From positions 29,321,786-29,385,785 of the forward strand of contig QCXZ01000041.1 of NCBI GenBank assembly GCA_025024175.1: 64,000 bases of DNA, read 5' to 3'. This document shows, piece by piece, positions 35,723 through 63,742 of this stretch; the first letter of the stretch is position 1, and each line of letters begins with the position of its first letter. This stretch comes from Rhyzopertha dominica (Eukaryota; Arthropoda; Insecta; Coleoptera; Bostrichidae). The translations under genes and the position numbers were made by a program. The notes beneath the pieces are model-generated. The model did no database searches and was not told the DNA's origin. It worked only from the letters and a program-made list of their open reading frames with translations.

Positions 35723-36605
35723 ATAGAGTGGGGTAAAACGGCGCAAGTACCAATTTGGAAATAAAATATTGTTATCCCGTTGTAGTAGCTTATATCAGTA
35801 AAATAGCTTAGTTTACTTTGCGGCAATCACAGTACTTATTTTAAGCGAATTTTGGCTGCTAGAAATTATTTTCTGTACTATAATAGCTTAGGGACCCGTT
35901 TTTTCCCTTCTCTCCCCTATATGGAATACAGCGATTCCGGTACTACCTCCTTGGCATTGCTTTGAGCAGATGTGCACAGTCACGACCACTTCTGATGATA
36001 TTAGCTACCCGCCCGAAATAGTACACTACACTCTTGTTTAACGATTTATTAATTGCTTACTTCGCTAATACAACGCACACGTCTCTGTCATCTGCCTTCC
36101 ACCCGATGACGCATTCACCGGGCGCATTACGTGAGCGATTCAAGGACGCTCCATGATGATCTTCGAACTCAAGGCGGCGCGATGGTATCATATCGTCTCC
36201 ACGTACAAAATGTCGAGAACGAGAACTACGCTGAAAAAGTCATACAAGGCTATCGTTATTATGTATGTCATTTATGTGCAATATTTTTATTTAGTAGTTA
36301 TTTCTCTTGTGTTGGTCTAGTCTCCCCCTTTATTTACTTTGTTAATTGTCTAGATTTTATCCATGTCTCTTATTCCTTTACAACTTAATTCTACAAATAT
36401 TTCACAGCGATATAGAACCGTTATTACTGATCAGTGTAGTTCCACCATTAAAACCATTGTTTGTTTTTCAAGAAGAAACAATTAAGGTCCCCGACCTGAC
36501 TTGACCTAACCTAGCCTTTTGAGTATTTATTATGCAATATACGATACTTGAGTAAATTCAGTACTAGCCTGTTCTGCCACCACTCAACTTGTATATTCAT
36601 AGTTA
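35723..36605. other. No recognisable gene
   Basis: Short frames only. A CCTAACCTAG stretch near 36.5 kb is too short to call a telomeric repeat. Confidence 0.45.
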
Positions 36606-48782: not shown

Positions 48783-51284
48783 ATGCAAATTTTCAAATTG
48801 TTCAAACAGTTACTTATGGAAAAAAGGTTTGATTATAAAAAAACAAACATTTTTATAGATTTCCTTCAAATCCTGAATTGCGACTAAAATGGAAAAAAAA
48901 TTGCCAAGTAAATGTTAATACAAATACTACCAATTTTTAAATTTGTGAAGACCATTTTCATAAAAGCCAGTTTATGAATTCTAGCAAACATTTGTTAATT
49001 CACAATGCAGTACCTACCGAAATTAAGCAACAAGAAAATTTAATACCTGTTACTTTACCCGATTCATTTGGGAGCCATCAGCTAGACCACAATTACTGCC
49101 AAGTTATGAATGACAATAATGCCAGTATAAATGGTAGTGGTGATAAACTTATGATAACTGATCATTTTGATGATAACCCAAGTGTAAATTATTTAACTGA
49201 AAATGAGCAATTACCATCTCCTCTCATCTCATCTCCATCTCATTTGTGTCGGCTAAAAAAAAGCTAGAATTTGAACGTGATAAATTGAAAAAATTAAAAG
49301 AAGCCCTCGATAACAATATTTTTGATGCTATTGAAAAAGATTTGAATGAAGTCACAAAAAATTTATTGAGTCTCAGTTACGTAATGCAGAACGGTCGGCT
49401 TATGGACGAAGGTAGACGGAAGATGATAAAGCTTTTGCTTTTAAATTGATAAACGGAGTCCACGTGTATATAGATTTTTATGTAATTTCTTCCAATTACC
49501 GTCCATACGTACGCTTAAAGGAATTTTGTCAAAAAAGATACCTTTTTCCACAGGAGTAAGTAAATTGTTATTAGAGCAGCTTGGAAAAAAAATAGCATGT
49601 ATGGAAGAACTGGACCGATGTTGTTCCATTATCTTTGACGAAATTTCTTTAAGCAAAGGATTGCATTATGAGCCACACGCACAAGAAATTGCAGGATTTG
49701 AGGATCTGGGAGAGTTGAAGTGTACTTCTAAACAAGCAGATCATGCTCTGGTTTTGATGATACGAGGCCTTAGGAAATCTTGGAAACAGGTTGTCGCTTT
49801 TTACTTTACAGCCGGGACAATTTCCGCTATTCATCTCAAATCAATCTTAGTTAACAGAATTTGTCAATTAGACACAATTGGCTTGAAAGTAAAAGCCACA
49901 ATCTGTGACCAAGGCACTACACAAAAAAAGGCACTGACGCAACTGTGTTCCGAAAAGGGAGATGGCTCAACTCCCTACTTATTTTTTATAAATGGCAATC
50001 CTATTGTGACAATTTTTGATGTGCCACATCTGTCAAAATGCACTAGAAATGCTCTACTCAGGTGCAACCTCAAGTTTGCTAAAGACAAATTAGCTAAATT
50101 TGAATACATTAGAAAGGCTTTTGATTTTGATCAAAGTAGAAATTATAAGGTGTTATGGAAATTAAAACCTGAACACTTCAATTTTAAAGACACATTTCTG
50201 AAAATGAGAGTAAAAGTTGCAGCGGCACAGCTGAGCAATTCAGTTGCGTCCTGTATCGAAACATCGATGATTTGTGGATTACTGCCAGCAAAATCTTTGC
50301 ATACTGCAGAGTTTGTACATATAATTGACGATTTGTGCGATTCATTAAACGGGTATCATGGCAAAAAGTATGTTCATTCTCAAGGAGGGTTCGCCTCACC
50401 TAGACTTGTGGGCGAATTTATTGCCACAAATGAGGGACTGGCGTTTACTCGAAATAGGTACTGGTAAAGACGTAACAAATGAATATCAACTTCTTACCAA
50501 TTTGCAACTTACAATCAGGGCAATTACATATTTGTGGCAACATTTACAAAAGTTAGGATTTGTGTTTATTAATCTGAAACAGTTAAACCAAGACCCAATC
50601 GAAAATTTATTTTCAATGGTTAGGCAACACGGGGTAACAAATACAAACCCAACTTGCCACCAATTTGTTGCCGCATTGAAAACAGTTGTAATTAATAACT
50701 TGTTTGCACCTGCTAGTAAATCGGCCAACTGTGAAGCAGACAACTGCCAAAACATCGAGACTTTTAGGAATTTTTTGAGTGTTGCTGCATCTACAGAGTT
50801 GTCTGTTGAAAATAAGGTGAGAAGTGTTCAGTTTCTTGATGAGATCAAGTCATTACCATGGGACAAAATTGATAATGACGACAGCCAAGCGGCTTCCTAC
50901 GTTGCGGGATATTAAAAAAAAATTGTTGTACCAGATGATACCTGTATCGTTTGTAAAAAAGGTTTGTTTGCAATTGAGGTGGGACCACAGCATTTGTTCA
51001 CATCTTTCAAAGAATATGATAAAGAGAACTGTGATCCCCTTTTAAAATATGCAAGTGACCAAGTTATTATTTTGACCCAAAACCTTCACAAAATGGTGTT
51101 TTTGTTCTTAGATCGTAATGGATATGAAAAAATGCTTGAAGATACATTTAAAGATATATTTTTTGCAGATTACCAGTCCAATTTTTGTCAGTCACATAAC
51201 TGTGATAAATTAATCATTAATGAGGCTGTGCGACTTCTAATATTTAAATATGTAATAGAAAAGAAGAAGTGTATTTTTTTTTAG
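48783..51284 (+). pseudogene. P-element-like THAP transposase, mostly open but frameshifted
   Basis: The N-terminal THAP zinc finger is visible in pieces: CKFSNC (Cys pair), FYRFPSNPELRLKWKKNC (FP and Trp), then ICEDHF (Cys-x3-His) and AVPT after a stop. A coiled, Lys- and Leu-rich segment follows (49,246-49,449). The main 313-codon frame (49,526-50,467) carries FDEISLSKGLHYE with the first catalytic Asp, the ICDQGTTQKKAL block with the second, and IVTIFDVPHLSKCTRNALL. A frameshift near 50,400-50,460 leads to NQDPIENLFSMVRQHG, the acidic block near the C-terminus. A last frameshift follows YVAGY at 50,913. THAP fingers bind element ends, and the RNase H-like core cuts DNA. With about four lesions it is a young pseudogene or a consensus with errors. 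Confidence 0.85.
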
Positions 51285-53013: not shown

Positions 53014-53701
53014 CTAGTCTATTTTCTTTTTAGTATTGCTAGCATTTTCTATAATTAACTGAAGCAATTCTCTAACATAAACTTCTATCAAAAGATCATC
53101 TTTCCCAAATCGTAACTTCATTGCCTCTATAATACTCTCGTAATTTTCTTTGGAAGGAGAAAAACTTTCGACAAGCCGTCTTGCTCTACTTTTAGCAACA
53201 GTAGAATGAATTAAATATTGGATTTTGTCGCTAAAGTCTATGTCAGGATCCTCATGAATTTTCTTAAACTGAGCCCAAAATGATAACCATTCCCGAATAT
53301 CTCCAGAAAATTGTTTAAACTCAATGACAGGTAATTTTAATTTGCGTTTACCTGTTATGCTGACAGCAGAAATACCTGTCACTGATTCGTGGGGGCTACC
53401 GGCAGACCTATTATCTCCATTGAGTTCATCCATAACAAGCTTCCATTCCAAAAACCTCTTCGTGTATACATCCCTACCATCAAGTTCCTCTAAGAGCTCC
53501 TCTAGCATTCGAGGCAAGTAGAGCTTCATAAACCTATTCGTCAGCAACTAATAGACTATCATATTTCTTCTGAAGCACCTCCCATGACACTAACACCTGT
53601 CTAGAACCCGTAGCATGTTCAGTGTAGAGTTGCTCCATATCATTAGCAGTCTTCGTAAACGCCGAACGAAACACCTTCCTGTGTTTCTTTTTAGCTTCCA
53701 T
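53014..53701 (-). pseudogene. BEL/Pao retrotransposon gag, truncated
   Basis: Reading from 53,701 on the minus strand, a Met start is followed by KKKHRKVFRSAFTKTAND and WEVLQKKYDSLL, typical of the BEL/Pao gag N-terminus. A stop and frameshift near 53,550 lead into a 177-codon frame with LPVIEFKQFSGDIREWLSFW and DFSDKIQYLIHSTV, then ENYESIIEAMKLRFGK. This is the DUF1759 capsid-like domain, in the usual order and length. The frame ends at 53,014 and nothing of the zinc-knuckle region or pol follows, so the copy is cut off there. Gag would form the particle that holds the element RNA. The primer site and LTR directly upstream confirm the orientation. Confidence 0.8.
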
Positions 53702-61279: not shown

Positions 61280-62611
61280 ATTTAATTTGTCCTTCATTTA
61301 TTTATTTCAAATCTGTTAAAAATTGTGTCGGCACGAACTTCCGAATTTCAAAAGGTAACCTTTATAAACGGGCAGCAGCAGAAGCACTCTTATTTGATTA
61401 TCCATAAATTAGAATCGTTATTATTATTTCGTTATTTCAATACATATACGTTAATTTAAGATAACAAAAAATCAGTTAAAAGCACTAATTCAGCTTTTCG
61501 ATAACTAACCGAAAGTCGATCAAATTTGGAAAGGGCCATGTATATTGAAAACCATTGACCTATATTCAATAAAAGGGGGAAAAAGTGATCATGACACCAA
61601 CATTAGTTTTTCTGTATCTCTTTGGCCTGCGTACCTAACGAAAATACCTCACTCTATGCACCGGCCAGCAATGATACAAAATTTGACAGTTTATTTTATA
61701 CACATTTGTGTAAATCTGCTTCGTGGTTGATGTTGAGTATATTTTATAATGAACCTGCGCTTTTTTATTTTTGCATGCCTCAAATTTTGTATATTACGTG
61801 TAAGCATACTGCAGTAACTAGTTTCATTATCGATGACTTGATCTAAGATCTCATCTATACCTAATTTTTACACACGTGGTCTAATAATGGTTTTTCAACT
61901 TACAGTATAAGTAATTTTTGATAAATCAACTCTAAGAATTATAATTATGAATCCGTATATATAACATTTCTAGAGGAAAAAAAAACAGCTGAAACCTAAA
62001 GGACGGAAACTAGCGTTGTAGGTTTGACTGTTCAATTGTTGTTTGTCGAATGACTTNAAAGCAGTGGTAATCCTTGAAATTCTGCATTCGGCAAACAAGA
62101 TAACCTATCACAAACGTCGGTTTTCCGACCGATTTCCCACAGCACGCACTTCATGGCAAGGGAAGTGGGCCATTTCATACTGGGTTAATAGAAGTGTTGC
62201 AGGAATGGTTGAACGGGGAATGCCGTAATCGTATAACCCTACATTCAGATGTAGTACATGTACTTGATATTCATAATGGATAGAATGCCTGTCAGTGTAC
62301 CCCGTAAGCGTACGAGACATAGAGGCGTGTTCAGCAATGTCATTTAAAACAGACAATGCAATTTTTGTGAAACGTTTGGCAAATGGAGGAGGCTTTTGAG
62401 GATGCAGTTTAAAATATGTTAACTTTAAAACAATTGTATTACATTTTGAGTGTAATTTTATTATTACAGTATTAGCACACATACTTACTCAGTTCGGTGC
62501 AGTTAAAAAATAGAGCAAAGTGTTTTATTTATAATTAACGTATCTACTGCTATTTTGCTCATACTTACGTATAATGCCTTTAACTGTACATTAATTCATT
62601 AAGCTATTTAT
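61280..62611. other. No recognised gene; one 124-codon ORF
   Basis: The minus-strand frame 62,108-62,482 reads without stops but has no motif that I know. Part of the opposite strand is also open. It could be old transposon sequence or chance. Confidence 0.35.
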
Positions 62612-62855
62612 TATGATGAAAGTAAGAATTTAGGTTGGCAATGCCATCTGTCAGCATTACACTGACATGATGACAAAGCCACCTAGCTGCCTTAACGGGT
62701 ACTACTTCCTAAAGGAAGTGACCTGCAGCCTGATAAATTGGCATGCAACTGCATACTTCAATTTGACATCAGGCCCCNNCGGCACTTTTTGCTGACGGGC
62801 AAGAACCAACATACATAAAAATGCATGTCTATGCTGTGCTGTCTACACCTCAACC

Positions 62856-62904
62856 AACTGCAGATAGTACTATTTCGCTGTCATTACAGCTCATCAGTGC
62901 AGTT
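62856..62904 (-). ncRNA. Hammerhead ribozyme, type I, family A copy 1
   Basis: On the minus strand: stem I AACTGCA paired with TGCAGTT (7 bp), core CTGATGA, stem II GCTG with CAGC around a 6-base loop TAATGA, GAA, stem III ATAG with CTAT around a 2-base loop, and cleavage base C before the second stem I strand. Every conserved core position of the hammerhead is met. Stem I extends outward after an internal loop (ACCT with AGGT), the usual place for contacts with loop II. The short stem III is typical of retroelement hammerheads, thought to act best as dimers or in concatemers. Confidence 0.92.
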
Positions 62905-62966
62905 TAGGTCTAGTGTTACTAGTGTAGACAACACGGCATAGAACTGGTTTTGCTACACTAGACCTA

Positions 62967-63015
62967 AACTGCACTGATGAGCTGTATTGACAACGAAATA
63001 GTACTATCTGCAGTT
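62967..63015 (+). ncRNA. Hammerhead ribozyme, type I, family A copy 2
   Basis: It has the same 49-nt layout as copy 1. The core, stem I and stem III are intact; predicted cleavage follows C63,008. Stem II is GCTG against CAAC, so one pair is a C-A mismatch, and the loop is TATTGA. Cleavage would be weakened rather than lost. It is head to head with copy 1 and 351 bp before copy 3. Confidence 0.9.
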
Positions 63016-63359
63016 GGTTGAGGTGTAGACAGCACAGCATAGACATGCATTTTTATGTATGTTGGTTCTTGCCCGTCAGCAAAAAGTGCCCTGGGGGCCT
63101 ACTTTCAAATTGAAGTATGCAGTTGCATGCCAATTTTCAGGCTGGAGGTCACTTCCTTTAGGAAGTAGTACCCGTTAAGGCAGCTAGGTGGCTTTGTCAT
63201 CATGTCAGTGTAATGCTGACAGATGGCATTGCCATCCTAAATTCTTACTTTCATCATACCATTGCTTTGGTATATAAGCAAAACCAGTTCTATGCCGTGT
63301 TGTCTACACTAGACCTAAACTGTACTGATGAGCTGTAATGACAGCGAAATAGTACTATC
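63009..63359 (+). mobile_element. 351-nt ribozyme-bounded repeat unit
   Basis: From the cleavage point of copy 2 to that of copy 3 is exactly one tandem unit. Cleavage at both would release a 351-nt RNA with ends suited to circularisation. The unit has no ORF. In ribozyme orientation it contains AAGTGCC, the CTTCCTTTAGGAAGTAG block, GGTATATAAGC (TATA-like) and GTTCTATGCCGTGTTGTCTA before the next ribozyme. This is the organisation of small non-autonomous hammerhead retroelements and of Penelope-like terminal repeats. Which of the two applies is not shown by the sequence. Confidence 0.7.
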
Positions 63360-63366
63360 TGCAGTT
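63318..63366 (+). ncRNA. Hammerhead ribozyme, type I, family A copy 3
   Basis: Complete core CTGATGA and GAA, stem II GCTG/CAGC fully paired with a TAATGA loop, stem III ATAG/CTAT, cleavage after C63,359. Stem I is AACTGTA against TGCAGTT, with one G-U pair in place of the C-G pair of copies 1 and 2, so the fold is kept. Downstream similarity to the unit ends near 63,405. Confidence 0.92.
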
Positions 63367-63405
63367 GGTTGAGGTGTAGACAGCACAGCATAGACATGCA
63401 TTTCT

Positions 63406-63742
63406 ATTTATTATGAATTATTATTAATATACTCGTTTGCGAACCCATCTGTATTTCATTACGCGATACAGACGAGTATATTATAATAGCATATGCAAAG
63501 CCACACTAGCGCCACCAACGGTCGATAAACTTTCCTATCTGCGTGATTATTGGTAGGTTTAATACCTATATTATACCTGTTTTGCGTTATCATCATTATA
63601 CATCCTTCATTTCTTGATGTTTAATAACATCCTATGATAACATCATACAGGTAGCTTTTTTTATCAAGCCCTGAAGCGCTGTTGACCTTGCGATGAGAAT
63701 CAACCAAGTACATTTTCTGTTTTCTATTTGAAGATAAGGTAA
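63406..63742. other. No gene seen
   Basis: Nothing recognised. The ribozyme-unit similarity stops here and a new retroelement frame begins afterwards. Confidence 0.5.

Follow-up and report, generated by a model that had tools for sequence, protein, structure and literature searches.

Two inverted arms and a 351-nt unit

We consider it quite probable that the 64,000-nt stretch of the Rhyzopertha dominica genome analysed here (hereafter the window) harbors a copy of a young, high-copy non-LTR retrozyme, and that its copies arise from a ribozyme-made RNA circle which is copied from both cut DNA ends by machinery of the Penelope-like element (PLE) type. The element is a 787-bp insertion carrying all three hammerhead motifs that an earlier note on this DNA had described as a cluster. 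They are instead parts of one insertion, bounded by 13-bp target-site duplications CTATTTATTATGA at 62604..62616 and 63404..63416 (direct repeat family D4, no strand). Its two arms were mapped on the circular unit, in which U1 is the base after the ribozyme cleavage site, and consist of the same 351-nt unit on opposite strands, minus on the left and plus on the right. The left arm starts at a position termed site B and occupies about 62617..62954 on the minus strand; its outer boundary is uncertain by ~5 nt, as bases there are in common with the duplication. The right arm lies on the plus strand at about 62955..63403 and ends at site A, and the inner junction of the arms is found at ~62954/62955.

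One full unit (U1-U351) extends on the plus strand from cleavage site to cleavage site at 63009..63359. Mapping and folding place a hairpin around site A at 63041..63063 (unit 33-55), while mapping of copy ends puts site A itself at 63053-63060 (unit 45-52) and site B, in a mostly predicted single-stranded stretch, at 63247..63258 (unit 239-250), all on the plus strand. By inspection, a TATA-like TATATAA at 63271..63277 on the same strand is a candidate internal promoter; it is located 29-35 nt upstream of the unit position where the right arm of the window copy begins, a spacing that may be coincidence because inner ends differ between copies. The unit is non-coding, with a longest stop-free run of 58 aa over the circle and a GC content of 0.43, and is predicted to fold as a rod (-139.2 kcal/mol when linear, z -7.84; -133.0 as a circle). 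A reading as miRNA on the basis of matches to MIR6274, mir-279 and mir-4798, all below gathering, was rejected, since these matches span the arm junction, where the palindrome scores.

Type I hammerhead motifs

The three motifs reside at 62856..62904 (minus), 62967..63015 (plus) and 63318..63366 (plus), and both a covariance match and a pattern search point to them, with cleavage predicted after C62863 on the minus strand, C63008 and C63359, respectively. Each contains CTGATGA, stem II, GAA, stem III, the cleavage C and a 7-bp stem I, just as the earlier note had read them. The differences it had listed between copies are equally borne out by the sequence, i.e., a G-C to G-U change in stem I of the 63318 copy and a C-A mismatch in stem II of the 62967 copy, and the latter also has a loop change. 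Stem III had been drawn with 4 bp and a 2-nt loop; it is present, but better drawn as 3 bp (AUA/UAU) closed by a palindromic GUAC loop.

The same note had named the lack of a covariance match above threshold as grounds against the motifs, and in fact none of the Rfam families scores at or above gathering anywhere in the window. When Rfam was run permissively, Hammerhead_HH9 (RF02275) matched exactly the places of the three motifs, with 28.0, 24.2 and 18.5 bits (E 1.4e-4, 0.0023 and 0.15). Each motif aligns to the entire model and has an identical core, but the 18.5-28.0 bits fall short of the family's gathering score of 52. No match to Hammerhead_1 (RF00163) is listed for the region in this run, from which overlapping matches of the same clan are omitted. 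A loose hammerhead pattern finds six matches in the window versus 0.77 expected. Three are the motifs described here and the others are located at 35992, 19262 and 26181. The first of these was tried as a further hammerhead (35992-36033) and discarded, as it fits the loose pattern but has no stem II. Two pattern scans of viral contigs gave no matches. Minimum-energy folds of isolated 54-nt sequences lack stem III, which counts against a hammerhead. Hammerheads are stabilised by loop contacts that are absent from such energy models.

The 34-nt ribozyme core occurs in 1,430 exact copies in the 479-Mb genome (754 forward, 676 reverse), compared with none genome-wide for the reversed core used as a control. 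In an alignment of 102 unit rows from 20 loci, the ten columns of CTGATGA and GAA show no change in 649 cells. All 51 ribozyme columns together hold 19 changes in 3,334 cells, ten of them at the cleavage-site column, and the unit columns outside the ribozyme 265 in 18,916; the depletion in the core columns is suggestive only, because the ribozyme was part of the query to which the chosen loci are similar. A pattern search of the 20 loci yielded 63 hammerhead motifs, 46 of them identical, with one type I motif per unit and a structure assigned by inspection; the ribozyme alignment omits two of the ten variants, one containing an N and one shifted by an indel. On the strength of 1,430 core copies against none for the control and of 649 unchanged core cells, we accept the motifs as type I hammerheads despite their sub-threshold Rfam scores, and they would be expected to cleave themselves. 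Loci L041 and L044 represent a retrozyme lineage in which A replaces C at the cleavage position of all readable units; the lineage is still present in several units per insertion.

Copy architecture across the genome

With the window query, 176 matches were found in the 479-Mb assembly among the best 40 scored of 1,933 candidates. Twenty loci, the window's own among them, were taken first from a list ranked by identity to the window and are thus not a random sample; seven further loci were taken by coordinate from the list of exact cores so as to escape the ranking. Two arms in head-to-head arrangement are present in 20 of the 27 mapped loci (21 if the marginal locus L080 is included), and the remaining six are single-armed. 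The ranked set contributes 16 two-armed loci out of 20, minus on the left and plus on the right, and the coordinate set four out of seven, each with one A and one B end and duplications of 13-14 bp. In every two-armed copy, the outer ends fall at site A (U45-52) on one side and at site B (U239-250) on the other, and neither A/A nor B/B copies occur among the 27 mapped loci. All six single-armed copies end at A. Four of them belong to the ranked set (L032, L036, L037, L046; separate distant fragments at L036 and L037 were not counted as arms), and the two from the coordinate set have no clear long duplication. In our own reading, L080 contains a B arm with ~7 nt of an A end opposite and a 12-bp duplication.

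Target-site duplications of 10-15 bp flank all 16 two-armed copies of the ranked set, and 12-14 bp are duplicated in five copies of the coordinate set, the four two-armed ones and L080; single-armed copies are mostly without a clear duplication. The duplications of 15 of the 16 two-armed copies in the ranked set have an AT content of 0.81 versus 0.67 in the flanks. In L050, the A end sits behind a later insertion that splits the A arm. This later insertion (1214-2330) duplicates 8 bp, ACACCTCA, as hAT elements do. Among the first 100 listed ribozyme cores there are 21 neighbours within 2.5 kb, 12 on the same strand at 349-352 nt, nine in minus-then-plus and none in plus-then-minus order. Folding the window's unit as a circle predicts a 4-nt hairpin loop at U43-46 (unpaired 1.0), where site A starts. 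Most of site B falls within U232-247, which is predicted to be single-stranded (unpaired 0.74-0.99); the unpaired value averages 0.32 over the unit.

Other hammerheads and neighboring elements

Searching the genome with RF00163 returned at least 22 matches over the cut-off among 66 matches listed; the same search of bacterial control genomes gave matches at E up to 10 in 11 of 14 and none over the cut-off. Other, more diverged dispersed hammerheads of the type CCTGATGAGTCCCAAAAGGACGAAACCCGGGTCGTAGG were seen at the eight loci examined (L071-L078). These comprise seven of the 22 over the RF00163 cut-off plus L076 just below it, and have nothing in common with the retrozyme unit at E 0.1. At L076 a weak inverted pair is present, its left member on the minus and its right member on the plus strand.

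At 2524-2687, the window contains a diverged relic that matches the unit's middle part, the stretch preceding site B included, at ~79-83 percent identity. A hammerhead core was not seen near it, and the relic suggests an older related repeat family. Two overlapping frames at 49445-50915 contain TNP-like RNase H N, GTP-binding insertion and RNase H C domains and are presumably the relic of a P-element/THAP9-type transposase. A DUF1759 domain is encoded at 53017-53547 on the minus strand, which we take to be of the kind found in the gag of BEL/Pao retrotransposons.

Penelope-like elements of the same genome

A genome-wide search for GIY-YIG produced 144 matches among the best 150 scored of 2,080 candidates, many of them in minus-left, plus-right pairs. 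At locus L055 (PLE1), units repeat in tandem every 2,780 nt, and a stop-free frame of 864 aa is present. Eleven loci (L056-L066) were chosen for paired GIY-YIG matches and are therefore two-armed by selection, which does not hold for the rule of one site per side: in all 11, the outer ends fall at unit positions 638-655 and 680-692, one per side, and in ten of the 11 target-site duplications of 12-16 bp are present. This PLE, a common one in the genome, follows the same one-site-per-side rule as the retrozyme, and the retrozyme copies thus have an integration signature in common with a PLE of the same genome. The two PLE sites, ~40 nt apart, correspond to the tail known from the available text of earlier work (PMC3846280, PMC11167929). 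As described there, PLEs resemble the retrozyme in their head-to-head arms, an optional tail on one inverted end, target-site duplications, an internal start of reverse transcription and a TATA-like motif in the repeat. The combination of head-to-head arms, one start site per side and a duplication is found in all 16 two-armed retrozyme copies of the ranked set and in all four of the coordinate set.

The two kinds of element differ in other respects. PLEs encode a reverse transcriptase with a GIY-YIG endonuclease, whereas the retrozyme unit is without a stop-free run over 58 aa, and the start sites of the retrozyme lie ~197 nt apart rather than ~40 nt. The retrozyme hammerhead has stems I, II and III; by inspection, the PLE versions encountered in this genome look minimal or decayed. 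In L056 the PLE's own hammerhead looks decayed, with stem II and GAAAC remaining and the CUGAUGA box lost, and a second PLE family (L067, C136:49383600-49387600), with an 820-aa frame, combines a minimal hammerhead-like motif, CTGAAGAAGATTTAAAATAAAATCGAAAGC, with an inverted stretch of 115 nt. A BLAST comparison of the retrozyme unit with PLE1 and eight further GIY-YIG loci gave only 10-19-nt matches with E of 0.2 or more, and sites A and B have no clear sequence match to the PLE sites. No convincing sequence common to retrozyme and PLE emerged from this comparison, which thus points to no particular PLE as the helper.

Template and mechanism of integration

Arms of the insertions run repeatedly through the cut site of the ribozyme. 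Twenty-eight of 36 arms cross the cleavage junction, up to five times per arm, and all 66 crossings are gapless within 6 nt; 26 of the 36 arms are longer than one unit, the longest reaching 1740 nt. A cleaved linear monomer can therefore not be the template of such arms. Thirteen columns of the unit alignment carry a second allele in at least four rows. When each insertion is scored separately, 30 cells are uniform for the minor allele and three are mixed, while permutation gave a mean of 2.0 uniform cells and never 30 or more in 1000 trials, and in 17 of 19 two-armed cells both arms are fixed for the minor allele.

The genomic copies thus display two fixed starts, one per side, the same haplotype in both arms, several rounds per arm and duplications of 10-15 bp. 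We infer self-cleavage, a circle, a PLE enzyme and the following order of steps. Retrozyme units would be transcribed, the hammerhead would cleave the RNA to monomers of 351 nt, and these would be closed into circles by a ligase of the host. A PLE-type endonuclease and reverse transcriptase would then make a staggered cut in the target. One DNA 3' end would prime at site A, in the hairpin loop of the circular RNA, and the other at site B, in the single-stranded stretch. Extension of both cDNAs and their joining end to end would result in the head-to-head copy. Several points weigh against this scheme. The Rfam scores are sub-threshold, sites A and B have no clear match to the PLE sites, the spacing of the sites differs (~197 versus ~40 nt) and six of 27 loci are single-armed. 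An anole PLE extended both strands in vitro with no start-site difference between them (PMC11167929), whereas the retrozyme uses one site per side, and uniform haplotypes would also be expected from uncut transcripts of homogeneous arrays.

An RNA circle explains haplotype uniformity and repeated passage through the cut site together, and the main rival is a homogeneous uncut multimer. Here, dual target-primed reverse transcription would take place on linear multimeric transcripts of genomic arrays, and we regard this as a rather unlikely, if serious, possibility. Tandem units exist in the genome, the anole PLE took unprocessed RNA in vitro (PMC11167929), and homogeneous arrays would give uniform haplotypes too. 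However, the units of the arrays differ. Among 122 private variants (in columns seen in two or more units), 107 are confined to a single unit, six are in all units and nine in some, a pattern expected if the changes arose once the copies had inserted. Arrays of this kind should be transcribed into units of mixed type, yet for the common variants 30 of 33 cells are uniform. Moreover, the length of an array could only shrink with each cycle on an uncut template, and yet arms reach five units.

Priming of both arms by a LINE-type reverse transcriptase instead of a PLE enzyme appears improbable. LINE-1 is known to produce 5' inversions by twin priming, and the ends of retrozyme and PLE lack a sequence link, which would fit such an origin. 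LINE-1 inversions are a minority, though, and start at the 3' end, whereas the retrozyme starts at two fixed internal sites, one on each side, and most of its copies are two-armed. In addition, the PLE of the same genome exhibits the same rule and similar duplications.

Self-priming, i.e., fold-back of the cDNA on an antisense template, has been proposed for head-to-head copies of rotifer Penelope (PMC3846280, available text). For the retrozyme we judge it very improbable. It predicts symmetric inner ends; these come within 5 nt of each other on the unit in two of 16 copies (L045 and L047, the latter with a palindrome), as fold-back would have it, but are at least 20 nt apart in the other 14. 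According to BLAST, arm ends overlap at the junction by 0-7 nt in twelve copies and by 20 in L045, and leave a gap of 1-6 nt in three (L034, L047, L048). Inner ends as varied as these are more in keeping with two independently made cDNAs being joined at their ends than with fold-back, a reading already strained by outer ends that use two different fixed sites. Finally, palindromic tandem repeats shaped by DNA recombination, with chance look-alikes of a ribozyme, could claim the sub-threshold Rfam scores for themselves but are hardly credible in view of 649 unchanged core cells and of dispersed copies whose fixed ends and target-site duplications need insertion, not recombination.

A probable new family of metazoan non-LTR retrozymes

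Metazoan non-LTR retrozymes carry type I hammerheads in tandem units of 150-450 bp, have no LTRs and are expressed as circles, according to the available text of Cervera and de la Pena (2020, PMC7229834). The window element is alike in its single type I hammerhead per unit of 351 nt, in tandem units with many dispersed copies, in a non-coding unit with a GC content below 50 percent, in duplications exceeding 4 bp (10-15 bp in all 16 two-armed copies of the ranked set), in a circle predicted to be highly self-paired and in the presence of PLEs in the same genome. The earlier note had thought of a Penelope or retrozyme-like carrier and left the family unnamed. Retrozyme-like was right, since the unit has the sequence-level features of metazoan non-LTR retrozymes, and the carrier can now be placed as a non-LTR retrozyme with a PLE-like integration signature. 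As judged from these features, it fits a new family of the metazoan non-LTR kind, which the signature would tie to PLE-type integration.

The family seems to differ from those known by its head-to-head copies with two fixed start sites. A term search of the main text of PMC7229834 found neither 'inverted' nor 'head-to-head'; in the available text of the 2020 review PMC7761336, 'head-to-head' does not occur and 'inverted' does so once, in a reference title. Within these two sources and a limited literature search, two-armed copies thus seem to be undescribed for retrozymes.

How animal retrozymes re-enter DNA, and by whose enzymes, is left open in the available text of PMC7761336, which finds in the retrozyme repeats no conserved motif from which a helper could be deduced. 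PLEs were put forward as strong helper candidates since both have type I hammerheads, a tandem form and a shared occurrence (PMC7229834, available text). The PLE-type signature described here bears on this question. Two start sites, one per side, head-to-head arms and similar duplications are common to retrozyme and PLE, which makes the PLE-helper hypothesis testable in any genome that contains both.

The signature also bears on the mechanism of PLEs themselves. Their inverted repeats have been ascribed to self-priming (PMC3846280, available text), and in vitro work with purified PLE protein showed cutting and extension of both strands and an internal start, with no start-site difference seen between the strands (PMC11167929). 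We lean towards the view that retrozyme circles may be native templates for dual, target-primed, rolling-circle reverse transcription by a PLE-type enzyme, which would load the two ends of a single staggered cut onto two distinct, structurally exposed start sites of the circle, with one start site per DNA strand and joining of the cDNAs, and that the same strand-specific two-site rule may be the normal integration of PLEs, replacing self-priming as the explanation of their inverted repeats.
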